Assembly (NCBI GenBank): GCA_018657385.1
Contig: JABHXF010000011.1
Location: forward strand, 1 to 32,885
From: Candidatus Woesearchaeota archaeon
GTDB lineage: Archaea; Nanobdellota; Nanobdellia; Woesearchaeales; DSVV01
Direction of reading: 5' to 3'
DNA: 32,885 nucleotides
In this document: piece after piece, positions 4,204-23,605 of the stretch
How positions within the stretch are numbered: the first letter of the stretch is position 1
Layout of the letters: the number at the start of each line of letters is the position of its first letter
Made by a program: the position numbers and the translations under genes
The notes under the pieces: generated by a model
Told to the model about the DNA's origin: nothing
The model's database searches: none
What the model saw: only the letters and a program-made list of their open reading frames with translations

Positions 4204-5235
4204 TTAATCTCTGATTGGGTTATCACCATTTGGCTTCATCAATGCTTTGTCTGTCATATTCATACTTTCTTCTCCATCTAGAAAACCCATTGCAGCTCTG
4301 ATTGCATCAATATTTTCTGGAACTACATCACTTTCTTGATGGACAGCCTGCATAAAAAAGATTTCTTTACCATGAACACCTACACCTTTTTCCCAAATGC
4401 AAATATCTGTCATGTCTCCTCTAAAATTACCTAAATCTTTTGCATACTCCATAATTTCTGCAGTTGAGTTAACTCCTAATTCTTTTCTTACAATCTTTAC
4501 TCTTCTTGTATTTCTTAATACTTCCATAACTTCTTCTCTTGTTACTTTGTGTTCTTTAAGATCTACACTTAAATTATGCATGTGCATTAATGTTGTAGGA
4601 ACAACAACTGCTGTTGTAAAAACTTCTACATCTGGGAGAACTGTTCTTACATCTGGACCATGATGTGATGGTAATTCTAGACAAGGAACAATTGCATTAA
4701 CTGGTCCTCTTTTGGTTTGACCTGGATCAGTTGCTCTTCTTATCAATGTTGCCCTTACACGAAGTATTGGCCACTTTTGATGGATTGCATGTAATGTTCT
4801 TGTTAACCCAGTTGTGTTACAGCTTACAACTCTGATGTTTTTCTTTCCAATTGCTTCTTTGTAATTACATTGTGCAACAAAGCTTTGTCCCATATCAGCT
4901 TTTTCTCCGCCTTGATAAATTGCTTTTAAATTTGGGTAAGTATCATAATGTTCTTCTTTATTTTTTCTTGCAATTTCTTTAGGGGTGCAATCAACAACAA
5001 CATCAATCTGGCTTAATAAATTTCTTAAACTACCTTTTATTTTTATTCCATGTTCACATAACTCTGTTATGTCATCCATTGCATAGATGTCTATACCTTT
5101 TTTTTTAGCAATCTCTACCCTATAATTATGTTTTCTAGCAGTTATTCCTATTAGCTGCATATCTTTTTGTCTCATTACAGCATCTGCTACCCTTTTTCCA
5201 ATTGTACCATATCCAACTATTCCTACTTTATACAT
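4204..5235 (-). CDS. gap: Type II glyceraldehyde-3-phosphate dehydrogenase (archaeal)
   Basis: Phosphorylating GAPDH of the archaeal type, interconverting glyceraldehyde 3-phosphate and 1,3-bisphosphoglycerate, here likely in the gluconeogenic direction. A Rossmann motif opens the protein (GYGTIGKRVADAV) and the catalytic Cys is in VVSCNTTGLTR (C139 from the ATG). The substrate region RRATDPGQTKRGPVNA and the ELPSHHGPDV motif are characteristic. Length is 343 residues, normal. A GTG at 5244 would add three residues, but AAGGTGA at 5241-5248 sits five bases before the ATG at 5235 and fixes that start. It is the last gene of the minus-strand operon, 63 bases after the transaldolase-like gene. 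Confidence 0.96.
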   Translation of the reverse strand: MYKVGIVGYGTIGKRVADAVMRQKDMQLIGITARKHNYRVEIAKKKGIDIYAMDDITELCEHGIKIKGSLRNLLSQIDVVVDCTPKEIARKNKEEHYDTYPNLKAIYQGGEKADMGQSFVAQCNYKEAIGKKNIRVVSCNTTGLTRTLHAIHQKWPILRVRATLIRRATDPGQTKRGPVNAIVPCLELPSHHGPDVRTVLPDVEVFTTAVVVPTTLMHMHNLSVDLKEHKVTREEVMEVLRNTRRVKIVRKELGVNSTAEIMEYAKDLGNFRGDMTDICIWEKGVGVHGKEIFFMQAVHQESDVVPENIDAIRAAMGFLDGEESMNMTDKALMKPNGDNPIRD

Positions 5236-5298
5236 CACTATCACCTTGATTATTATTTTTCTATTATCTTATTTTGAGTTGTTTATTCATTAACTTGT

Positions 5299-5946
5299 TC
5301 ATTTGTCTTTAACCTTCTCCCAGTCTTCTAAGAACTTTTTAATTCCTTTATCAGTTAATTCATGTTTAAACATTTCATTAATTAGTTTAGGTGGTATTGT
5401 TGCAATATGTGCTCCTAACATTCCAGATTCTTTTACATGTTCAAGATTTCTTACACTAGCAACAATTATTTCAGTTTTGAAATTATAATTTTTATAAATT
5501 TCAACAATTTCTTTGATAACATCCATTCCTTTTTCTCCAATGTCATCTAATCTTCCAACGAATGGACTTACGAAACTTGCACCAGCTTTTGCTGCTAAAA
5601 TAGCTTGATTAGCAGAAAATGTTAAGGTGACATTACATTTTATTCCTTCTGCTTCTAAAACCTTTACTGCTTTTATTCCTTCACTTGTCATTGGAACTTT
5701 AATAATTATATTTTTATGTATTTTACTTAATTCCTTGCCTTCTTTAATCATACCTTCTGCATCTAGGCTAACAGCTTCAGCACTTATTGGTCCATCTACT
5801 ATTTCTGTTATTTCTTTTACAACTTGTTCAAAATTTCTTCCTTCTTTAGCAATTAAGCTTGGATTAGTTGTAACGCCATCAATTATTCCAATATCATTTA
5901 ATCTTTTAATTTCCTCTACATCAGCTGTATCAATAAATATTTTCAT
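5299..5946 (-). CDS. Transaldolase/fructose-6-phosphate aldolase (FSA-type)
   Basis: Short transaldolase-family TIM barrel, 215 residues, the size of the fructose-6-phosphate aldolase/short transaldolase group. It moves dihydroxyacetone units among sugar phosphates, linking fructose 6-phosphate with erythrose 4-phosphate. [14 protein letters not shown] at the start, [13 protein letters not shown] at 24-36, the Schiff-base lysine K83 in IIIKVPMT, and [11 protein letters not shown] at about 104-114 identify the family. Whether it acts as transaldolase or FSA cannot be decided by reading. GGAGATGAT precedes the ATG. It starts 12 bases after the aldolase stop, so co-transcription is near certain. 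Confidence 0.94.
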
Positions 5947-5958
5947 TTTATCATCTCC

Positions 5959-7125
5959 TTAATCTTCATCATTAATTTTTTTAATATAATCTCTTACAAT
6001 TTGTGCGCTACCATTTGCCTTGAATGCATCAAAAAACTTAAGTGCTTCTTCGTATGTTTTATCTTCAATCTTTTTTACAGTTTCTGAATCAAGGGCATAA
6101 ATCTCATCAAAAAATTGTTTTGTTGCAAACTTTCCAAATTTACCCCATATCTCGTCATCTGATTTTGCACCCTTTTCTTTTGCTTTTTCACTATATGTAT
6201 CTATTACCCATTTGTGAACTTTATTAAAAAATTCAGGATTTTTTTCTTTAACAACATTCCAAAATAAATTTTGCCAAAATGTTCCGACATTTCCTTTGAT
6301 TATATCTCCATGTGGAAACTCTTTTTTGATTATGTTCAAAGGTGTTCCTGTAATTCCATGTTGTGCAATTCTAACCTCACTATTCATATTTCTTAATGCT
6401 TGTGCAACAGATTTTGTTTGTTCAATATCTATATTAATTTGTTCAATTAATTTTCCATTATCATCATAAATATTTCCATGTGTTGAACCATTTGCAATTG
6501 CTAAAACTTGTGGATAAACTTCTGCATTATTTAATGCTTTTATGTATCCATCAGCTTCTTCAGGACTTGTAAGAATCATTCCTTCATTTCCCTTTCTTCC
6601 GATTTCTCCAACTTCTACTTCAAAACCAAATTCTGAATTCCCATGTTTTTCATTATATTTTTGTTTAATATGTTCTCCACAAACAATTGTACTTCTTATA
6701 TTGTCTGCTAACTCTTCTTCTACACCATTTCCTTCAAAATTAAATAAGTGAGAAGCGTCAATTGCAAAAGAGGAGTAACCTGTATCAATACAACTAGTTA
6801 ATAATTTTTTGACTTCTTCTAATTCTTCTTCACTACCTTTTTTTACTGCAGTATGGTCAGCATGTAATCCCCATACTTCAAACTCAACTTCAGAAGCAGT
6901 TTTACATGCATGTTCTGATAATGTTTTAGGGGTTAAACCAGTATAACCTCCATCTGCATTACATTCTGATTTTGCTAATTCAATTATGAATGCAGCATCA
7001 GCTTCTTTTGCAGCTCTAAATAAACCTTTCATTATTCCAACACAAATTCTTGTGTTACATGCCATTATTATACATCCTTTATCTTTTAGTGCTTTGAATA
7101 AGTATGCTCCATGCATTGGTTTCAT
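5959..7125 (-). CDS. Class II (zinc) fructose-bisphosphate aldolase family protein
   Basis: A zinc-dependent class II aldolase of 388 residues, expected to condense glyceraldehyde 3-phosphate and DHAP to fructose 1,6-bisphosphate. Visible metal/catalytic residues are the HADH motif (H88, D90, H91), E171/E174 in FEVEVGEIG, H216 in NGSTHGN and H256 in AQHGITGTP. Most archaea use a class I aldolase or the bifunctional FBP aldolase/phosphatase, so a class II enzyme beside a separate phosphatase is notable. The family also includes tagatose-bisphosphate aldolases, but the operon (FBPase, FSA, GAPDH) favours the fructose enzyme. AAGGTGATAAT precedes the ATG. Confidence 0.88.
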   Translation of the reverse strand: MKPMHGAYLFKALKDKGCIIMACNTRICVGIMKGLFRAAKEADAAFIIELAKSECNADGGYTGLTPKTLSEHACKTASEVEFEVWGLHADHTAVKKGSEEELEEVKKLLTSCIDTGYSSFAIDASHLFNFEGNGVEEELADNIRSTIVCGEHIKQKYNEKHGNSEFGFEVEVGEIGRKGNEGMILTSPEEADGYIKALNNAEVYPQVLAIANGSTHGNIYDDNGKLIEQINIDIEQTKSVAQALRNMNSEVRIAQHGITGTPLNIIKKEFPHGDIIKGNVGTFWQNLFWNVVKEKNPEFFNKVHKWVIDTYSEKAKEKGAKSDDEIWGKFGKFATKQFFDEIYALDSETVKKIEDKTYEEALKFFDAFKANGSAQIVRDYIKKINDED

Positions 7126-7170: not shown

Positions 7171-8100
7171 TTATTCTATTTTCCAGCATTTTCTAGCAAG
7201 TTCTATTTCATATTTGCTACCAAAATATACTGGGCTTCTTTGGTGTATATTTTTTGGGATAATATCCAAAATATCATCCTGGCCATCTATTGCATATCCA
7301 CCTGCTTGTTCCATTATGAATGCTAATGGTTGTAGTTCAAACAATATTCTTAGTTTGCCTTCTGGTTTATTTATGATGGGGGGATTAGTAAATACCCCTC
7401 CTCCTTTAAGCAAAATCTGATTGAAATCAGCAACACCTGCCCCTGAATATCTTAATTTATGTCCTTCTTTTTCTAATAATTCTATGAACTTACGATGGCA
7501 TTCTAACCAATCTCTTCTAAGTGCTCCTGGTGAGTAAAGTTTTCCTTTTTCTTTAATCTTTATATTTTTCTGAGATAATAAAAATTCACCTTCTGGATTA
7601 AGGACAAATTCATGTGTGCCTTTCCCAGTTGTCAATACTAATGTTGTCAAAGGTCCATATAATACATACATACTTGCAACAATGCTTTTTCTTCCTTTAA
7701 AACCACCTTTGTATATTCCAACAATAGTTCCTACGGCAAAATTCACATCTACTAACGAACTTCCATCTAATGGATCAATTGTGACAGAATAAATTGCTTC
7801 TTCACCTTGTTCAGGCATTTTTACACTTATTACTTCATCTTGTTCTTCACTTGCTAATTCTTTTACATATTTGCTATGCTTCATCCGCTCTATAATTATT
7901 TTATCAGCTGCTTTATCAAGTTCTAGTTGCTCATCTCCAGAAATGTTTTTTGTGCCTGCGTACTTTCTGTTTACTTCATGTATTTTTGAGGATATGTATT
8001 TTGATGTTACTGCAATATAGAATATGAGTCTCCTTAATTTTACATCAACTTTTTCTTCAACAAGAAATGTTCTTAGATCGATGTTGTTTATTCCTTTCAT
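7171..8100 (-). CDS. fbp: Class I fructose-1,6-bisphosphatase
   Basis: Hydrolyses fructose 1,6-bisphosphate to fructose 6-phosphate, the committed gluconeogenic step. Counting from the ATG at 8100 (309 residues), the metal sites are seen in GDEQLELDKAAD (about 55-66), the ELASEEQDE loop (81-89) and the signature DPLDGSS (109-115); YSGAGVADFNQIL and a C-terminal EQAGGYA segment also match. An upstream in-frame start at 8139 exists, but AAGGTGATAAG directly before 8100 decides the start. Class I FBPase is mainly bacterial/eukaryal and occurs in some archaea. The aldolase gene starts 45 bases downstream. Preceded by a 41-codon membrane-protein gene and the operon promoter. Confidence 0.95.
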   Translation of the reverse strand: MKGINNIDLRTFLVEEKVDVKLRRLIFYIAVTSKYISSKIHEVNRKYAGTKNISGDEQLELDKAADKIIIERMKHSKYVKELASEEQDEVISVKMPEQGEEAIYSVTIDPLDGSSLVDVNFAVGTIVGIYKGGFKGRKSIVASMYVLYGPLTTLVLTTGKGTHEFVLNPEGEFLLSQKNIKIKEKGKLYSPGALRRDWLECHRKFIELLEKEGHKLRYSGAGVADFNQILLKGGGVFTNPPIINKPEGKLRILFELQPLAFIMEQAGGYAIDGQDDILDIIPKNIHQRSPVYFGSKYEIELARKCWKIE

Positions 8101-8144
8101 CTTATCACCTTTTTTACATTGATTATTCTTTCTTGACATCTAAA

Positions 8145-8292: not shown

Positions 8293-8305
8293 ATATTATA
8301 TAAAG
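8293..8305 (-). promoter_or_regulatory. TATA box for gluconeogenic operon
   Basis: Minus strand reads CTTTATATAATAT-like sequence centred near 8300, about 26-30 bases before the ATG at 8270. It is the only good TATA element upstream of the five minus-strand genes. Confidence 0.6.
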
Positions 8306-8314
8306 TTTGTGTAT

Positions 8315-8334
8315 TATCATACTTCATCATACTT
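8315..8334. repeat. Tandem 10-bp direct repeat between divergent promoters (candidate operator)
   Basis: TATCATACTT is followed immediately by CATCATACTT (9 of 10 identical), so the two copies lie on the same helix face. The pair is centred between the minus-strand TATA at 8293-8305 and the plus-strand TATA at 8344-8353, about ten bases from each, next to both BRE positions. A protein bound here could act on both promoters. The adjacent gene encodes a ribbon-helix-helix domain, a fold that binds short tandem or inverted repeats. The pairing of protein and site is inference. Confidence 0.5.
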
Positions 8335-8343
8335 TTCAAAAGA

Positions 8344-8353
8344 TTTATATATT
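8344..8353 (+). promoter_or_regulatory. TATA box for RHH-nucleotidyltransferase operon
   Basis: TTTATATATT, predicting a start near 8372-8376 and a leader of about 35 bases before the ATG at 8409. Confidence 0.6.
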
Positions 8354-8408: not shown

Positions 8409-9266
8409 ATGAAAGAACGTGTTACACTAACTTTAGATACAAATTTGTTAGCAAAGATTGACAAAAAAGTAGATGGATTTAAAATCAAAAATAGGAGTCA
8501 TTCTATTGAATTAATGTGTATGAAAGCATTAGGTGAATCTGCTCCTAAACTAGGTTTAATATTAGCTGGTGGCAAAGGCACAAGATTAAAACCAATAACC
8601 GATGAGATTCCAAAACCATTATTACCTATTTTGGGAAAACCAGTAATTGAATATACTTTAGATTTATTTAAGCAATTTGGAATTACAAAAGTTCTTCTTT
8701 CTATTGGTTATATGGGTGATATGGTTAAAGAACATTTTGGAGATGGGAGAAAATTTGGGCTAGAGATAATTTATGTTGAAGAAGATAAACCTCAAGGAAC
8801 AGGTGGTCCATTAAGAATTGCAAAAGAACATTTAACTGAAACCTTTGTTATGTGTAATGCTGATGAATTAAAAGATGTTAATCTAGATGATATGTATTTA
8901 TTTCATAAAGAAAACAAAGCAATTGGAACAATTGCACTAACAACAGTTCAAGATCCTAGTGCCTATGGTGTTGCTAAGTTACAGGGCAATAAAATTTTAG
9001 AGTTTATTGAAAAACCTAAAAAAGAAGATGCACCATCTAACTTAATTAATTCAGGTTTATATATTCTAGAACCAGAAGTTTTAAATTATGTTCCAGAAGG
9101 TGAAGAACCAGTTTCCATTGAAAGAGATGTTTTTCCTAAACTAGCAGAAGCAGGTAAGTTATTTGGTTATCATTTTGCTGGGCAATGGTTTGATACAGGA
9201 TCATTAGAAAGATTTGATACTGCAAGAAAAAACTGGAAAGGTTTTAGCTGGGAGAAAAAAGAATAA
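8409..9266 (+). CDS. Ribbon-helix-helix domain fused to sugar-1-phosphate nucleotidyltransferase
   Basis: Two domains in 285 residues. Residues 1-44 (KERVTLTLDTNLLAKIDKKV … KNRSHSIELMCMKALG) have the pattern of a CopG/Arc-type ribbon-helix-helix DNA-binding domain: a short beta strand, then two helices with an NRSHSIE turn. Residues 47-285 are an NTP transferase: LAGGKGTRLKP at 52-62, KPLLPILGKP at 69-78, PQGTGG at 128-133, metal-site D152 in CNADEL, and FIEKPK at 199-204. It most resembles short mannose-1-phosphate guanylyltransferases (ManC/GMPP-like), though glucose-1-phosphate nucleotidyltransferase is possible. The phosphomannomutase gene 50 bases downstream supports GDP-mannose synthesis. 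The fusion suggests it may also bind DNA, perhaps its own control region. Confidence 0.9.
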   Translation: MKERVTLTLDTNLLAKIDKKVDGFKIKNRSHSIELMCMKALGESAPKLGLILAGGKGTRLKPITDEIPKPLLPILGKPVIEYTLDLFKQFGITKVLLSIGYMGDMVKEHFGDGRKFGLEIIYVEEDKPQGTGGPLRIAKEHLTETFVMCNADELKDVNLDDMYLFHKENKAIGTIALTTVQDPSAYGVAKLQGNKILEFIEKPKKEDAPSNLINSGLYILEPEVLNYVPEGEEPVSIERDVFPKLAEAGKLFGYHFAGQWFDTGSLERFDTARKNWKGFSWEKKE

Positions 9267-9316: not shown

Positions 9317-10645
9317 ATGTCTATATTCAAAGCATATGATATAAGGGGTATTTATCCTACAGAGTTGAATGAAAATACTGCTTATAATGTTGGTAGGGCT
9401 TTTATTATTTTTACAGGTGCAAAAGAAGTTTGTGTTGGTCAAGATGCAAGAAAAACTTCTCCTAAACTTTTTGATGCATTAACTAAAGGAATAACTGATC
9501 AAGGTGCTAATGTTATTGATATTGGATTATGTTCAACACCTTTATTTTATTTTGCAACAAAAAATTATGCTTCAGGAATTATGGTAACTGCTTCTCATAA
9601 TCCTGCAGAATATAATGGATTCAAGCTTTGTAATGGTGGTACGCATCCAATTAGTGGAGAAACAGGTATAAAAGATATTGAGAAGATGGTTATCACAAAT
9701 AATTTTAAAGATGTTGTTTCTAAAGGTAGTATTTCTAAACATGATTATCTGAATGAATTTATTGATTTCTGTTTGAAACATAAGGGAGAAATAAAGTCTA
9801 TGAAAATTGTTATTGATACAGCAAATGGTATGGGCGGGTATGTTTTCCCCAGAATCTTTGAAAAGCTTCCACAACTAGAGATTATACCACTTTTTTCAGA
9901 AATTGATATGAGCTTTCCAAATCATGAGGCTAATCCTTTAAAGCCAGAAAACATGGTTGATTTACAAAAAGCTGTTATTGAAAATAAAGCTGACTTAGGC
10001 ATTGCTATTGATGGTGATTCTGATAGGGCAATGTTTGTTGATGAAAATGGGGATGCAATAAGTTCTGATTTTGTTACAGCATTATTGGGATTAGAATTAT
10101 TAAAAGAAAAACCAAATGCTGCTATGGGTTATGATGTACGGAGTTCTAAAATTGTGAAAGAGATTTGGGCTGAAAATGGTGCAAAACCTTTTGTAACAAG
10201 GGTAGGTCATGCTTTAATTAAAGAGATGATGAGGACAGAAAATTCTTTTTTTGCAGGAGAACTTTCAGGCCATTATTATTTTCAAGAGATGGGGTACACA
10301 GAGAATACAATTTTGGCAACATTAATTATGTTAAATCTGATTTCAAAGGAAAATAAAACCTTATCTGAAATTGTTAAACCATTAAAGAAATATTTTCAAT
10401 CAGGCGAGATTAATTTTGAAGTTGAAGATAAAATGGCAAAGATGAAAGAACTTGAAGAGCTTTATAAAAATAAAGGTGCACTTAATACACATTGGCTTGA
10501 TGGCATAACTGTTGAGTTTGAAGATTGGTGGTTTAATGTAAGACCATCTAACACAGAACCTTTGTTAAGACTTAATTTAGAATCCAATACAAAAGAATTA
10601 CAGGATGAAATGTTTGAAGAATTGAAAAAAATTATTGAAAGTTAG
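9317..10645 (+). CDS. manB: Phosphomannomutase/phosphoglucomutase
   Basis: Alpha-D-phosphohexomutase of 442 residues that interconverts hexose 6- and 1-phosphates, here most likely mannose, feeding the nucleotidyltransferase upstream. The phospho-serine loop TASHNP places the catalytic Ser at 93, the metal loop is DGDSDR at 232-237, the sugar loop is GELSGHYYF (about 313-321) and the phosphate-binding loop is RPSNTEP near the C-terminus (about 416-422). The opening FKAYDIRGIYPTEL is typical. GAGGTG precedes the ATG. Substrate choice (mannose, glucose or both) cannot be read. Its stop is convergent with the transglutaminase-like gene, 57 bases away. Confidence 0.94.
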   Translation: MSIFKAYDIRGIYPTELNENTAYNVGRAFIIFTGAKEVCVGQDARKTSPKLFDALTKGITDQGANVIDIGLCSTPLFYFATKNYASGIMVTASHNPAEYNGFKLCNGGTHPISGETGIKDIEKMVITNNFKDVVSKGSISKHDYLNEFIDFCLKHKGEIKSMKIVIDTANGMGGYVFPRIFEKLPQLEIIPLFSEIDMSFPNHEANPLKPENMVDLQKAVIENKADLGIAIDGDSDRAMFVDENGDAISSDFVTALLGLELLKEKPNAAMGYDVRSSKIVKEIWAENGAKPFVTRVGHALIKEMMRTENSFFAGELSGHYYFQEMGYTENTILATLIMLNLISKENKTLSEIVKPLKKYFQSGEINFEVEDKMAKMKELEELYKNKGALNTHWLDGITVEFEDWWFNVRPSNTEPLLRLNLESNTKELQDEMFEELKKIIES

Positions 10646-13224: not shown

Positions 13225-13243
13225 GTGATAAAATGCAACCAAT
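13208..13243 (+). repeat. 36-bp direct repeat, copy 2 (psmA start)
   Basis: Second copy of the repeat at 13113-13148; it contains the true psmA ribosome site and ATG (13233). The 59 bases between the copies match neither flank, so this is an insertion between duplicated ends rather than a plain tandem duplication. Confidence 0.95.
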
Positions 13244-13970
13244 GAGTCATCAAATGATGGGATATGATAGGGCTATTACAATGTTTAGTCCAGATGGAAG
13301 ATTATTACAAGTAGAATATGCAAAAAAGACAGTAAAACAAGGTTCAACAGCTCTTGGCATGGTATGCAAAGATGGTGTTGTTTTAATTACAGATAAAAGA
13401 ATTGTTGATAGTTTAGTTGTTCCAGAATCTGTTGAAAAAATATTCATGATTGATAATCATATTGCAGCAACTGCTTCAGGAATAATTAGTGATGCTCGTG
13501 TTTTAATTGAAAGGGCACAAATAAAAGCTCAACAACACAGAGTTACATTTGATAGTCCAATTGATACTTTAGTAATTGTTAAAGATATGTGCAATTTAAA
13601 ACAAATTTGTACTCAAAGTGGAGGTTTAAGACCATTTGGTGTCTCTATTTTAGCTGCAGGTATTGATAATGAAGAACCAAAGTTATTTGAAACTGATCCA
13701 ACTGGAATTTTTTTCCAATATAATGCAAGTGTTATAGGTGAAGGAGAAACAGAAATTGAAGAACTATTGCATAAAGAGTATAAAAAAGAAATGACAATTG
13801 AAGATGGTTTAAAATTAGGTGTAAAAGCATTAACAATGGTTGTCGACAAAAATTTCAATGTTGATAGACTTGATTGTGTTTATATCAAAACCACTGACAA
13901 AATATTTACACGAGTTCCAAAAGATAAATTATCACTCATTTTAAATGAGGTTAAGAAAAAAAAGAAATAA
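13233..13970 (+). CDS. psmA: 20S proteasome alpha subunit
   Basis: Forms the outer rings of the archaeal 20S proteasome and its gate. The opening YDRAITMFSPDGRLLQVEYA (residues 9-28) is the alpha-subunit signature; the family is not catalytic and lacks the N-terminal Thr of beta subunits. Further matches are GIISDARVLIERAQ and GGLRPFGVSILAAG. Length 245 is usual. The C-terminus is a run of lysines. AATAGGTGATAAA precedes the ATG. It follows pop5 by 166 bases, of which about 95 come from a duplicated start region. No beta subunit is in the window. Confidence 0.97.
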   Translation: MQPMSHQMMGYDRAITMFSPDGRLLQVEYAKKTVKQGSTALGMVCKDGVVLITDKRIVDSLVVPESVEKIFMIDNHIAATASGIISDARVLIERAQIKAQQHRVTFDSPIDTLVIVKDMCNLKQICTQSGGLRPFGVSILAAGIDNEEPKLFETDPTGIFFQYNASVIGEGETEIEELLHKEYKKEMTIEDGLKLGVKALTMVVDKNFNVDRLDCVYIKTTDKIFTRVPKDKLSLILNEVKKKKK

Positions 13971-14029
13971 TCTTAAGAAAAGATAATCAAATAATTAAAT
14001 CATTGAAATGAATAAACAAAAAGGTAAAA

Positions 14030-14743
14030 ATGGTAAATGTTGACAAAGCTGTTATAGCAAGGCTAAAGAAAGATGGGAAAGATTTTGAAATCTTAGTAGA
14101 TTGTGATAATGCTATTTCTTTTAAACAAGGAAACTCAATTAGTTTAAAAGATGTTTTAGCAGACGACAAAATTTTTACAGACTCAAAAAAAGGATTAGTT
14201 GCTTCTGAATCTTCATTAACAACTATTTTTGGAACAAGCAATATAGATGATGTTGCAAAAATTATTATTAATGACGGAGATATACAATTAACTTCAGAGT
14301 TTAGAGCAAAGTTAAGAGAACAAAAAAGAAAGAGAATCTTAACACATATTCATAGGAATGGTATTGATCCTAAAACAGGATTACCTCATCCAATTCAAAG
14401 GTTAGAATTAGCATTTGATGAAGCAAGAATAAAAATTGATGAAAACTTGCAAGAGGACAAACAAATACAAGATATACTTAAAAAACTACAACCAGTGTTA
14501 CCAATTTCATTTGCATTAAAAGAAATTGCAATCAAGGTGCCAGCACAACCAGCAGCAAAATCATATGGTCCAATAATGAATGTTTTTAATTCAATGGGCA
14601 AAGTTTTGAAAAATGAATGGTTAAATGATGGTTCTTGGGCAGCAGTTGTTGAAATTCCAGCAGGAATGCAGAATGATCTTTTTGACAAATTAAATGGATT
14701 AACACAAGGAACAGTTGAAACAAAAATCTTGAATACAAAATAA
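14030..14743 (+). CDS. Ribosome maturation protein SBDS/Sdo1
   Basis: Archaeal SBDS homologue; with EF-2-like GTPases it releases the anti-association factor aIF6 from new large subunits. Three domains fit the family: FYSH domain at about 1-85 (VIARLKKDGKDFEILVDCDNA …), a helical middle around 90-160 (EFRAKLREQKRKRILTHI, then NGIDPKTGLPHPIQRLELA) and a C-terminal ferredoxin-like domain at about 165-237. Length is 237. AAGGTAAAA precedes the ATG at 14030. It is followed 12 bases later by rrp4, the standard archaeal neighbour. Confidence 0.96.
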   Translation: MVNVDKAVIARLKKDGKDFEILVDCDNAISFKQGNSISLKDVLADDKIFTDSKKGLVASESSLTTIFGTSNIDDVAKIIINDGDIQLTSEFRAKLREQKRKRILTHIHRNGIDPKTGLPHPIQRLELAFDEARIKIDENLQEDKQIQDILKKLQPVLPISFALKEIAIKVPAQPAAKSYGPIMNVFNSMGKVLKNEWLNDGSWAAVVEIPAGMQNDLFDKLNGLTQGTVETKILNTK

Positions 14744-14755
14744 AGGTGCAGAAAA

Positions 14756-15448
14756 ATGGGAAAATTAATAGTTGAAAATAAAACAATTGTCGTTCCTGGA
14801 GAAACACTAGCAGAAGGTATGGATTACCTGCCAGGTAACGGAACATATAGAATTGGTGAAAAAATTCTAGCAGAGAAATTAGGTTTAGTTAATGTAGATG
14901 GAAGAGCATTGAAATTAATTCCACTTGCAGGAAGATATTCTCCTAAAATCAATGATACAATCATTGCAAAAGTTATAGATGTTACTCTCAATGGTTGGCG
15001 TCTAGAAACAAACTCAGCTTATACAGCAATGTTGCCAGTAAAAGATGCAACTGCTCAATATATTGCTAGGGGAGCAAACTTAACTGCTTTTTTTGATATT
15101 GGTGATCATGTTGTTGCAAAAATTACAAATGTTACAAGTCAAAAATTAGTTGATGTTAGCACAAAAGGACCTGGCTTAAGAAAATTAGCAGGTGGAAGAA
15201 TCATTGGAGTTAATCCGTACAAAGTACCAAGAATTATTGGTAAACAAGGTAGTATGGTTAGCATGATTAAAGATGCAACAAACTGTAAAATTACTGTTGG
15301 TCAAAATGGATTCATTTGGATTGATGGTGAGCCAAAAGAAATTTTAAGAGCAGTTAATGCAGTTAGAATGATTGATGAAAATTCACACATGAAGGGGCTT
15401 ACAGATAAAGTAAAAGAGTTTCTCCAAGTAGGAGGTGAAGCAAAATGA
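14756..15448 (+). CDS. rrp4: Exosome RNA-binding subunit Rrp4
   Basis: Cap subunit of the archaeal exosome that binds RNA and feeds it to the Rrp41-Rrp42 ring. The order is N-terminal domain (about 1-55, VPGETLAEGMDYLPGNGTYR), S1 RNA-binding domain (about 62-135) and KH domain (about 150-205, with VPRIIGKQGSMVSMI and ITVGQNGFIWIDG). Length 230 is normal. AAAGGTGCAG precedes the ATG. The last four bases overlap the rrp41 start (ATGA), showing translational coupling. Confidence 0.96.
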   Translation: MGKLIVENKTIVVPGETLAEGMDYLPGNGTYRIGEKILAEKLGLVNVDGRALKLIPLAGRYSPKINDTIIAKVIDVTLNGWRLETNSAYTAMLPVKDATAQYIARGANLTAFFDIGDHVVAKITNVTSQKLVDVSTKGPGLRKLAGGRIIGVNPYKVPRIIGKQGSMVSMIKDATNCKITVGQNGFIWIDGEPKEILRAVNAVRMIDENSHMKGLTDKVKEFLQVGGEAK

Positions 15449-16182
15449 GTTATACTAAAAGAAAAGATAACAGGGGCTTTGACGACTTCAGAAAAGTTGA
15501 AGCAAAAGCAGGTGTTATAAAAAACGCAGATGGTTCAGCATATTTTAAAATTGGAAATACTATTGCATATGCAGCTGTTTATGGACCAAGAGAATTATAT
15601 CCAAGGTTTCTTCAAAATCCAACAAAAGGGATTTTAAGATGTAATTATAATATGATGCCATTTTCAGGAATGGGTGAAAGAGTTAGACCTGGACCAAGTA
15701 GAAGATCAAAAGAAATTTCAATGGTTACACAAAAAGCATTAATTCCTGTTTTGGATTTATCAGAATATCCTAATGCAGTTGTTGATGTTTTTATTGAACT
15801 TACAGAAACAGATGCTGGTTCAAGATGTGCAGGTATTTGTGCTGCTTCAATGGCTTTAGCAGATGCAGGATTAAAAATGAGAGATCTTGTAACAGCAGTT
15901 TCAGTTGGTAAAGTTGATGATAAAGTTGTTGTAGATCTTGACTATGCTGAAGAAGCTTATGAAGATGGCCATGTTGCAGATATTCCTATTGCATATATTC
16001 CATCAACTGGAGAATTTTCACTTCTTCAAATGGATGGTATAATCTCAACTGATGAATTTATTGAGGCATTAACATTAGCAAAAAAAGCAATGCCACGTCT
16101 TTACGAGATACAGAAAAAGGCATTGAAAGAAAAATATTTATTATTTCATGGAAATGAAGAGAAAGGTGAAAAAAATGAGTAA
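15445..16182 (+). CDS. rrp41: Exosome catalytic subunit Rrp41
   Basis: RNase PH-fold subunit with the phosphorolytic site of the exosome, degrading or tailing RNA 3' ends. Core motifs include GSAYFKIGNTIAYAAVYGPRE near residues 31-51, RPGPSRRSKEISM near 87-99, ELTETDAGSRCAGICAASMALADAG near 123-147, and VVDLDYAEEAYEDGHVADIP, which supplies the acidic catalytic residues. It has the longer N-terminus FDDFRKVEAKAG typical of Rrp41. Length 245. The start overlaps the rrp4 stop and its stop overlaps the rrp42 start. Confidence 0.96.
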   Translation: MSYTKRKDNRGFDDFRKVEAKAGVIKNADGSAYFKIGNTIAYAAVYGPRELYPRFLQNPTKGILRCNYNMMPFSGMGERVRPGPSRRSKEISMVTQKALIPVLDLSEYPNAVVDVFIELTETDAGSRCAGICAASMALADAGLKMRDLVTAVSVGKVDDKVVVDLDYAEEAYEDGHVADIPIAYIPSTGEFSLLQMDGIISTDEFIEALTLAKKAMPRLYEIQKKALKEKYLLFHGNEEKGEKNE

Positions 16183-16954
16183 TGACCAAAAACAACACAT
16201 GATTAAATCCTTTAAACAAGGAGTAAGATTTGATGAGAGAGGTTTAGAAGATTTTCGTAAACTAACAATCTCATGTAAACCCTCAAAAACAGCAGAAGGT
16301 TCAGCAGTTGTCAAATTAGGTGACACTGAAGTTATTGCAGGAATAAAAATGATGGTTGGTACACCATTCCCTGATAGACCAGAAGATGGTGTTATCATGG
16401 TTAATGCAGAATTTTTACCTTTAGCAAGTCCAGATTTTGAATCAGGACCACCAGGTATAGATTCAATTGAATTGTCAAGAGTTGTTGACAGAGGAATTAG
16501 AGAAAGTCATGCAATGGATTTAAAGAAATTATGCATTAAGAAAGGAGAAAAAGTATGGATTGTTTCAATTGATATTTGTACATTAAATGACGATGGTAAT
16601 TTATTGGATGCAGCTGCATTAGCAGCATTAGCAGCATTAAAGTCAACAAGATTTCCTGGATATGATGGTGAAGAAGTTAATTATAAAGAATTAACAGATG
16701 ATAAACTTCCTTTAGCACAAGAGCCAATTCCTGTAACTGTTTACAAAGCTGGAGATGTCTTTTTTGTAGATCCAACTAAAGAAGAGCAAAAAAATGTTGA
16801 TGCTCGTCTAACAATTACAAGTTTAGGGGATGGTAATTTATGCGCTATGCAGAAAGGTGGAGAACAACCATTTACTTTAGATGAAATTTCAAAGATTGTA
16901 GATTTAGCAACTAAAAGATCTAAAGATCTAAGAAAGGAAATTGATAAACTTTAA
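16175..16954 (+). CDS. rrp42: Exosome subunit Rrp42
   Basis: Non-catalytic RNase PH-fold partner of Rrp41 in the hexameric ring. From the ATG at 16175 (259 residues), matches include GVRFDERGLEDFRKLTI near 15-31, GSAVVKLGDTEVIAGIK near 42-58, and LNDDGNLLDAAALAALAALK near 141-160, all typical of Rrp42. It lacks the Rrp41-type arginine and aspartate cluster. An earlier in-frame ATG (16148) exists, but AAAGGTGAAA directly before 16175 selects the later one, which also gives the usual overlap with the rrp41 end. RpoK follows after 57 bases. Confidence 0.96.
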   Translation: MSNDQKQHMIKSFKQGVRFDERGLEDFRKLTISCKPSKTAEGSAVVKLGDTEVIAGIKMMVGTPFPDRPEDGVIMVNAEFLPLASPDFESGPPGIDSIELSRVVDRGIRESHAMDLKKLCIKKGEKVWIVSIDICTLNDDGNLLDAAALAALAALKSTRFPGYDGEEVNYKELTDDKLPLAQEPIPVTVYKAGDVFFVDPTKEEQKNVDARLTITSLGDGNLCAMQKGGEQPFTLDEISKIVDLATKRSKDLRKEIDKL

Positions 16955-20998: not shown

Positions 20999-23605
20999 AT
21001 GAATCTAAAAAAGACTGTAAGAAAAGTCGCAGCTTTAGGTATTGGTGTGTCAATGGTTGGCGCAACATTATTGGGAGCAATGGCAACTGCAGATCTAGGA
21101 AATTTTCCTACAATGTTTATTAACGAAGAAGGAAAGTTTGATGGAATTTTTGTAGTTGGTAAAAACGCAAAGGCTGAAGATATTATTGGCCAGAATATGC
21201 TTGTTTCAGCATTACAAGTAGTAGCTGTTAAGAAAACACCAATCGAGGGAGCATCAACATCCACTACAGTTTCAGATGGATATGAGCTGGGTAATAGTGA
21301 TTGGTATCTAAACATGTCAGCACAGAATATTGATTCACAGTTGACAGAAGCTGAACTACCTGTATTATTAGTAGATGGTACATTCAAAGACAATGAAGGA
21401 AACAACAAACAAAGTGAAGATTACACACAAAAAATCTTCTTTCCAAATACTGGAACAGTTGATGTAAGATTTGATCAGGACAATGATTTAGCACCTGATG
21501 CAGATACATATCTATACTTTAAGGATAGTTCATCTACCTACAGCTATAGTTATAACTTTACATTTGATACTTCAATTGATGTAGATAACTCTTCATCAGC
21601 TAGTATGAGTGGAGATTTAGAAGGCACAACTTTAGTATTAATGGGTAAGTCTTTTAATATTGTTGACCTAAAATTTTCTTCAGGTGATTTAACTGAGCTT
21701 GAATTATTAGGTGGGGAACAAGTATCATGGCTTTCACAAGGAGAAGTTGTTACAACAACAATTGATGGTGTAGATCACACAGTTGAAATGGTTGATGTTA
21801 CTGAAACAGCATCCACTGGTGAGATTACAGCATGTGGTTTCTTAGTTGATGGTCAATCTGCTTGGGTTGACAAAGGTACAACTGAAACTGTTAATAGTGT
21901 TGTAATTGGTGTAACAGATGGTAAAGCTATTCACTCATCAACACAAGATACAGATGTTTGTAAAGTAAGTATTGGAGCAAACTCAATTTTGTTTAAAGAC
22001 TCAGGTAGTGAGATGAAGTTGAATGATATAGATATTTCAGAAGCAACTGATTTCTATGCAAATTCATATGTTAACTACCTTCAATCAACACAAAAATGGT
22101 CAGGATTTAACTACAGAGTAAATCCAGACGATGACAATGTTTATTTAAGTGTTGGTGATGAGCTTGTTGATCCAGTCTTAGGAACATTTAAAATTGTGTT
22201 TGGTGATTTAGTTGAAGATGAAAAAGAAGTACTTACTTTTGATGCATCTGGAAAAACAGGATCACTTTCTTTCCCAAACAGGGATGGAAAAATGATTGAT
22301 TTAGATATTAAATCAGATACAACTAGGGCTTTTTGGGGCGACTCAGCAACTTCAACAGACATTGATGAGATGATTTACTTTGAAAATACTTCATGTCTCT
22401 TCGTAACTGAAGTCACAGAGTGTAAGGGTGCAAAATTCCTTGTATCATCTGGTTCAACTAAGTTGGAAGGTCACCTAATGGAAATCAGTAATATTGATAC
22501 AAACAACAACAAAATCAGTATTAAGGATTTAACATATGGAACTGAGACAGAAGATTTAACTTTTGTAAATGGATCAGATAATTCCTTAACATTAAGTGGT
22601 CTTGATGACACAATTACTTTGTCATATGATCCAATAGACCTAAATCTAAACTTTACTAGTTTAGGAAGTGGTTATGCTGCAAGTACTGGATCTGCTGTAA
22701 CTTCTGTGATGATTCAAACAGACAAGGAAGGATATGTTGGTATTAATTTGACAACCAATGCAACTGCAACTGCTCAAACACAACCAATTGTCCAGAATAT
22801 TACTTTCTATGAGTATTTTGACTCAGGAACACATGTTGATGGTAATATCTTTGATGACGCAGCTGAAGGTTTTGTAGTTCAAGTTATCTATGATACAACA
22901 GATAGTGCAATTGAGTTCCAGTTTGATGGTGAAAACCACGTACTTGGAGACACTAATAAAACATTTGGTGCTAAAGATTTGAGTGCAGATGATGACGACA
23001 ATAAAAAAACTATTTCCATGAAAGGTACATTATTTACCTATGATGACGATAGTTCAAAACAAAATATTGTCATTGAGCATCCAAAACTAGCTTCATATGC
23101 AAGAATCTTTGTTGCTCCAGTAGAAGCATCAACAACAACCTCAACAGCAGGTACATTTACTACAGAAGTTCAACAAATTGGTGTAAATCAATATAAATTG
23201 GACACAGAAGTAGCTGATGTAACCGCAGTTAACATTGTAGCTGTAGGTGGTCCATGTGCAAACAGCGTAGTAGCAGCACTAATGGGTGACCCAGCAGAAT
23301 GTTATTCAGCAATGGGTATTGAAGCTGGTCAAGGTTTAATCAAATTATTCGAAGATGAAACCACCGGTAAAGTTGCTCTTGTTGTAGCAGGTCAAACAGC
23401 TGAAGATACAAGATATACTTCACAAATTATGGCAACATATGCAGATTTCGACCTTATGGGTATGGAATTAGTAGCATCCACAGTTAGTGAAGCAGATCTT
23501 AAAGTAATGACTAAAACTGAAGCTTTAGCAATGTCAGCTACTGAAGAAGTTATGGAAGCTGAAGAAGTCATGGAAGCTGAAGAAGTTGTAGAAGCAGAAG
23601 AATAA
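20999..23605 (+). CDS. S-layer protein (Methanococcus-type family)
   Basis: Main candidate for the surface lattice protein, 868 residues. A signal peptide covers about 1-31 (LKKTVRKVAALGIGVSMVGA … AMA-T). The mature N-terminus (ADLGNFPTMFI … FDGIFVVGKNAKAEDIIGQNMLVSALQ) and a C-terminal block at about 745-815 (VNIVAVGGPCANSVVAALMG … GQTAEDTRYTSQIMATY) are the two halves of the archaeal S-layer N/C fold. The centre is acidic, Thr/Ser/Asp-rich beta-type sequence with many N-x-S/T sites. The protein ends in a repeated acidic tail (EEVMEAEEVMEAEEVVEAEE). TTAGGAGGTG plus a long leader predict high expression. Sites could be glycosylated by the nearby transferases. Confidence 0.92.
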   Translation: MNLKKTVRKVAALGIGVSMVGATLLGAMATADLGNFPTMFINEEGKFDGIFVVGKNAKAEDIIGQNMLVSALQVVAVKKTPIEGASTSTTVSDGYELGNSDWYLNMSAQNIDSQLTEAELPVLLVDGTFKDNEGNNKQSEDYTQKIFFPNTGTVDVRFDQDNDLAPDADTYLYFKDSSSTYSYSYNFTFDTSIDVDNSSSASMSGDLEGTTLVLMGKSFNIVDLKFSSGDLTELELLGGEQVSWLSQGEVVTTTIDGVDHTVEMVDVTETASTGEITACGFLVDGQSAWVDKGTTETVNSVVIGVTDGKAIHSSTQDTDVCKVSIGANSILFKDSGSEMKLNDIDISEATDFYANSYVNYLQSTQKWSGFNYRVNPDDDNVYLSVGDELVDPVLGTFKIVFGDLVEDEKEVLTFDASGKTGSLSFPNRDGKMIDLDIKSDTTRAFWGDSATSTDIDEMIYFENTSCLFVTEVTECKGAKFLVSSGSTKLEGHLMEISNIDTNNNKISIKDLTYGTETEDLTFVNGSDNSLTLSGLDDTITLSYDPIDLNLNFTSLGSGYAASTGSAVTSVMIQTDKEGYVGINLTTNATATAQTQPIVQNITFYEYFDSGTHVDGNIFDDAAEGFVVQVIYDTTDSAIEFQFDGENHVLGDTNKTFGAKDLSADDDDNKKTISMKGTLFTYDDDSSKQNIVIEHPKLASYARIFVAPVEASTTTSTAGTFTTEVQQIGVNQYKLDTEVADVTAVNIVAVGGPCANSVVAALMGDPAECYSAMGIEAGQGLIKLFEDETTGKVALVVAGQTAEDTRYTSQIMATYADFDLMGMELVASTVSEADLKVMTKTEALAMSATEEVMEAEEVMEAEEVVEAEE

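Follow-up and report, generated by a model that had tools for sequence, protein, structure and literature searches.

Our analysis indicated that the gene at positions 8409 to 9266 (+) of the window, i.e. the whole 32,885-nucleotide stretch of woesearchaeal DNA analysed here, likely encodes a trigger enzyme or one-component regulator of sugar metabolism, for which DNA binding, the ligand and the sign of control are presumptive. The 285-aa product (ATG start; identified from the ORF list, Pfam and orthologues), hereafter RHH-NTase, carries a ribbon-helix-helix (RHH) domain in residues 1-44 (8409 to 8540, +), with R4, T6 and T8 as predicted DNA-contact residues, followed by a sugar-1-phosphate nucleotidyltransferase (NTase) domain in residues 49-273 (8553 to 9227, +; PF00483 at 2e-46, and Foldseek). 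In the mechanism we propose, the C-terminal NTase domain would make an NDP-sugar, most likely GDP-mannose, with a phosphomannomutase (PMM) encoded next door, and the N-terminal RHH would dimerise and bind an ATCATAC-type direct repeat between the promoters of NTase-PMM and of a divergent row for fructose-1,6-bisphosphatase (FBPase), aldolase, transaldolase and glyceraldehyde-3-phosphate dehydrogenase (GAPDH). When the NTase pocket is filled by sugar-1-phosphate, NTP or NDP-sugar, DNA binding would be altered, and the supply of activated sugar would set the transcription of sugar-nucleotide synthesis and gluconeogenesis.

The initial annotation had described an RHH domain fused to a sugar nucleotidyltransferase, and the ORF coordinates, the domains and the conserved layout all bore this out. 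Since the start site and the fusion were kept in dozens of genomes, neither a wrongly called start nor an artefactual join in the assembly explains the fusion. The search for the same two-domain layout in other genomes was positive: full-length close relatives, with alignments starting at residue 1-5, were present in 136 of the 353 genomes of the order. Further RHH-NTases occurred in other orders of the class and a more diverged one in a record labelled Altiarchaeota (L037), while the named records among the relatives were mostly Woesearchaeota. One record titled Candidatus Aminicenantes bacterium (JAFCCF010000006.1) carried the archaeal gene and promoter, and appears to have been mislabelled or mis-binned.

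Residues 1-48 alone matched NikR models (1.6e-4) in an NCBIfam-type model search, and as a single sequence reached 0.018 against Pfam RHH_1, under the Pfam cut-off. When a profile built from 30 relatives over the RHH stretch was compared with solved RHH proteins, E. coli NikR was the best match (9.4e-7), in support of the proposed RHH assignment, followed by the antitoxin Rv0298 (2.4e-4), Pyrococcus NikR (0.003) and CopG (0.009). The AlphaFold2 monomer (pLDDT 93) placed residues 1-10 in an extended stretch and residues 11-20 and 29-40 in helices, followed by the NTase fold; this predicted strand-helix-helix order is in line with an RHH, whose ribbon forms only in a dimer, RHH domains being obligate dimers. 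K2, T8, R29, S30 and E34 were invariant in 32 orthologues, and the polar, outward-facing strand residues R4, T6 and T8, which we take to correspond to the DNA-contacting residues of CopG and NikR, were conserved among orthologues. Judged from the profiles and the model, residues 1-44 belong to the RHH (MetJ/Arc/CopG) fold, and it is strongly suggested that this head acts as an operator-binding dimer. Membership of the TrmB family was not indicated, the winged-helix domain PF01978 being absent among the Pfam matches of the protein.

The NTase domain showed the fold and the signature (GxGTRxxP...PK, D, EK, D) expected of PF00483. Its Foldseek matches were 8x7s, VTC1, GMPPB and MurU, and the structurally nearest proteins were tlr0611, GDP-mannose pyrophosphorylases and MurU. 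By sequence comparison, the codons of GGKGTR (residues 54-59; 8568 to 8585, +) were intact, as were the following PK, K69, D152, E201-K202, N214 and D262. The search of the source genome (about 90% complete) turned up only two NTP_transferase genes, RHH-NTase included. With the signature intact and one other such gene, RHH-NTase is probably a working enzyme, and its catalysis is probably needed here. Loss of the signature is seen in the relatives grouped below as classes B, C and D, and for them the description of a pure transcription factor that uses an inactive NTase as sensor does hold, class C still keeping the fold; for the window's protein the same description is very improbable given its intact residues and the two NTP_transferase genes. 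As for the product, the best NCBIfam model was mannose-1-phosphate guanylyltransferase (NF052502), and the second gene of the operon encodes a phosphomannomutase/phosphoglucomutase (9317 to 10645, +; Pfam; NCBIfam PRK09542, 461 bits). Because of these two, GDP-mannose is the likely product and our best guess. They agree with the earlier proposal of this product, although the NCBIfam match scored 183.5 bits against a curated cut-off of 440 bits.

Divergent to NTase-PMM lies a tight row of genes on the minus strand for FBPase (7171 to 8139; PF00316/PF18913), class II fructose-bisphosphate aldolase (5959 to 7125; PF01116), transaldolase/F6P aldolase (5299 to 5946; PF00923) and archaeal-type GAPDH (4204 to 5244; PF02800), the homologue of the last in L118 being a type II GAPDH. 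Comparison of upstream regions revealed a candidate operator between the two operons, the direct repeat ATCATACTTCATCATAC with a period of 10 (8316 to 8332, +). Two divergent TATA boxes flank it, each at a distance of exactly 11 bp: TTTATATA of NTase-PMM (8344 to 8351, +) and that of the FBPase operon (8297 to 8304, -). Upstream of orthologues the repeat was near-invariant (consensus ATCATACTTTATCATAC) and stood just 5' of BRE/TATA; in the 1.54 Mb source genome TCAYAC-N4-TCAYAC had a single exact match, at the RHH-NTase promoter. The position of the operator suggests that RHH-NTase controls both operons. Control of its own genes, as first proposed, finds good comparative support in an operator conserved at the gene's promoter, in RHH contact residues that are kept and in an RHH that outlasts catalysis. 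However, the scope given to this control was too narrow, because the site looks onto the FBPase operon as well, and in relatives it is found at glycolysis/gluconeogenesis genes.

Of 46 relatives, selected on nothing but the similarity of their proteins, 30 carried the repeat within 150 bp upstream with at most 3 mismatches, in most cases 40-55 bp before the ATG, compared with 3 of 920 dinucleotide shuffles; the other 16 were without a good site, and some of these genes sit inside operons. In the 353 genomes of the order, the strict consensus with at most 1 mismatch gave 73 sites versus 16 for the reversed pattern, 2 of the latter lying at class D relatives of the RHH-NTase family. By our own tally, the RHH-NTase gene accounted for 43 of the 73 and class C paralogues for 2, frequently opposite a GlpX-type FBPase that is divergent; about 8 sites inside ORFs were regarded as chance. 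The gene was present and absent in 59 and 8 motif genomes versus 77 and 209 others (Fisher 1e-20, kinship ignored). Only the strict consensus was informative for such counts: the loose TCAYAC-N4-TCAYAC was rejected as a genome-wide marker, as it gave few more matches than its reversed control in 100 genomes. A search for a second strong site in the source genome found none (2-mismatch sites, 8 vs 10 in the control), and a weak site near GAPDH-I there was discarded because it was not conserved in relatives. The beta-strand residues were weakly linked with site presence (28 of 39 vs 2 of 7, p=0.04). The match of regulator to site rests on co-occurrence, and another regulator could bind the candidate operator. 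In two sister genomes (L106:1501 and L107:743), a ATCTTACTTTATCATAC site stood beside an apparent tRNA gene with another element, TATCATACTTTGTATGATA, nearby, and no protein target was evident.

RHH and catalysis were conserved separately. The catalytic GxGTR/K signature was lost in 14 relatives, and an RHH with R4, T6 and T8 was kept in all 14; conversely, 8 relatives without a recognisable RHH kept the signature, one of which (L100) may be a mis-called start, its locus being alignable from residue 5. On a tree that is weakly resolved, parsimony required the catalytic state to change 9 times; when scored as a group, the well-supported branches force only 2 changes. In two of the 14, L094 and L148, the decayed RHH-NTase came before a separate NTase that was intact and had no RHH. 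Class B had lost the nucleotide loop and kept D152, E201, K202 and N214, which, from our knowledge of RmlA-type enzymes, are presumably sugar-side residues. Classes C and D are more distant pseudo-enzyme paralogues with an RHH, and the structure model of class C was predicted to retain the NTase fold. In class C (L064-L082 and L135; e.g. L071:2460-3257, +), most genes had a near-invariant upstream triple repeat (TCTTAC/TCCTAC/TGCGAT, ATCTTACCTTTATCCTACTTTATGCGATA) between two TATA boxes, and several adjoined GalU-like NTases or UDP-glucose dehydrogenase. Class D (L057-L061) showed a KVAISLDK strand, a pseudo-NTase and TTCATACTNNTTCATACT near the start codon, adjoining heptose-pathway-like genes (GmhA-like and HldE-like by eye). 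In other orders of the class (L181-L197), several loci had inverted repeats, GTATGAT..ATCATAC (as in L196 and L197) or GTATTAC..GTAATAC, between TATA and start codon in place of the direct repeat. Judged from the class C repeats and these palindromes, an element at the gene's own promoter seems to be present in several lineages. Since RHH domains are obligate dimers and many NTases are oligomers, the RHH might only dimerise the enzyme, with the upstream repeat belonging to an unrelated regulator. We regard this as quite unlikely: R4, T6 and T8 are conserved even in the members with a decayed catalytic loop, the site tracks the RHH-NTase gene across genomes, and the pseudo-enzyme paralogues keep the RHH, with class C and D repeats at their own promoters.

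A wider regulon was visible in related genomes, while the source genome has one strong site only. Of the non-self sites, 10 of 28 were at central-carbon promoters versus 0 of 14 control sites (p=0.017). These targets, recognised from Pfam/NCBIfam matches or from their similarity to the GAPDH of the window, comprised enolase, GAPDH-II, PFK, FBP aldolase/phosphatase, transketolase, a glucose-6-phosphate-isomerase-like protein and H+-PPase; one of the four GAPDH-II sites (L049) is ambiguous, since L157 keeps the site without GAPDH. For a 675-aa target protein (L145) no identity was found. Plain autorepression, holding the levels of enzyme and PMM constant with no sensing involved, would fit the own-gene operator as the strongest signal and the lone strong site of the source genome; however, a metabolic signal is suggested by the pocket retained in class B and by the sites that relatives have at PFK, enolase, GAPDH and FBPase, which makes plain autorepression unlikely. 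We infer metabolite sensing by the NTase pocket because class B keeps the sugar-side residues and loses the nucleotide loop. Sites were upstream of TATA at RHH-NTase, GlpX, most GAPDH-II, transketolase and FBP aldolase/phosphatase, and downstream of it, near the start, at PFK, enolase and PPase. TrmBL1 sites are split likewise, being activating upstream of BRE/TATA and repressing downstream, over the start site (PMC4706686, PMC4158304). A TrmBL1-like split is thus a suggestion from few sites. By analogy with TrmBL1/Tgr, the upstream operator position suggests that RHH-NTase would activate, and a bulky dimer blocking TFB/BRE is equally possible.

Elsewhere in the window, consecutive genes at 13233 to 16954 (+) resembled, by eye, a proteasome subunit, SBDS, Rrp4, Rrp41 and Rrp42, a proteasome-exosome cluster typical of archaea. 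The 868-aa protein encoded at 20999 to 23605 is secreted, bears a tail of acidic repeats (EEVMEAEEVVEAEE) and is probably an S-layer-like surface protein.

To our knowledge, the control of central metabolism in DPANN archaea is almost unknown. One protein, one operator and a short target list make the question testable in vitro without culturing the organism. The relatives offer a natural series from active trigger enzyme through split enzyme and sensor to pure pseudo-enzyme regulator, along which the classes differ both in the strand residues that would contact DNA and in their promoter elements. For the broadest reading we see the chances as evenly balanced: RHH-NTases would form a large and as yet undescribed family of one-component regulators in archaea, with the sugar-nucleotide-making fold as metabolite sensor. 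The active member would serve Woesearchaeota as the central switch for glycolysis/gluconeogenesis, and pseudo-enzyme paralogues, which have operators of their own, would monitor other sugar-nucleotide pathways. The open-access literature was searched for fusions of an RHH with a sugar NTase and for RHH regulators of Woesearchaeota, and nothing on RHH-NTase was found. An archaeal NTase as enzyme/sensor with a central-carbon regulon did not appear in that literature either, and this is what we consider new.

Autoregulating fusions of an enzyme with an RHH are already known from PutA, in which an N-terminal RHH on a metabolic enzyme likewise exerts autogenous control of the pathway operon (PMC5293562). 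However, PutA is a bacterial flavin dehydrogenase that switches by membrane binding, whereas RHH-NTase is an archaeal NTase whose catalytic part has apparently decayed repeatedly into sensors. NikR, the nearest solved relative, has the same RHH subtype and a C-terminal ligand domain, but this is an ACT-like nickel sensor and not an enzyme. The NTase fold is shared with GMPPB/GMPPA and VTC1 (about 34% identity to RHH-NTase for GMPPB and VTC1), though these human and plant proteins have extra C-terminal sequence and no RHH. GMPPA, a paralogue without catalysis that is reported to bind GDP-mannose and to have a regulatory role (PMC11228364), is a precedent for a regulatory NTase, but one acting on the enzyme and not on DNA. 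The role proposed here is closest to that of TrmBL1/Tgr of Thermococcales in the global control of archaeal glycolysis and gluconeogenesis (PMC4706686, PMC4158304), yet those regulators combine a winged helix with a sugar-binding domain and use the inverted repeat TATCAC-N5-GTGATA, whereas RHH-NTase would combine an RHH with an NTase and the direct repeat ATCATAC-N3-ATCATAC.
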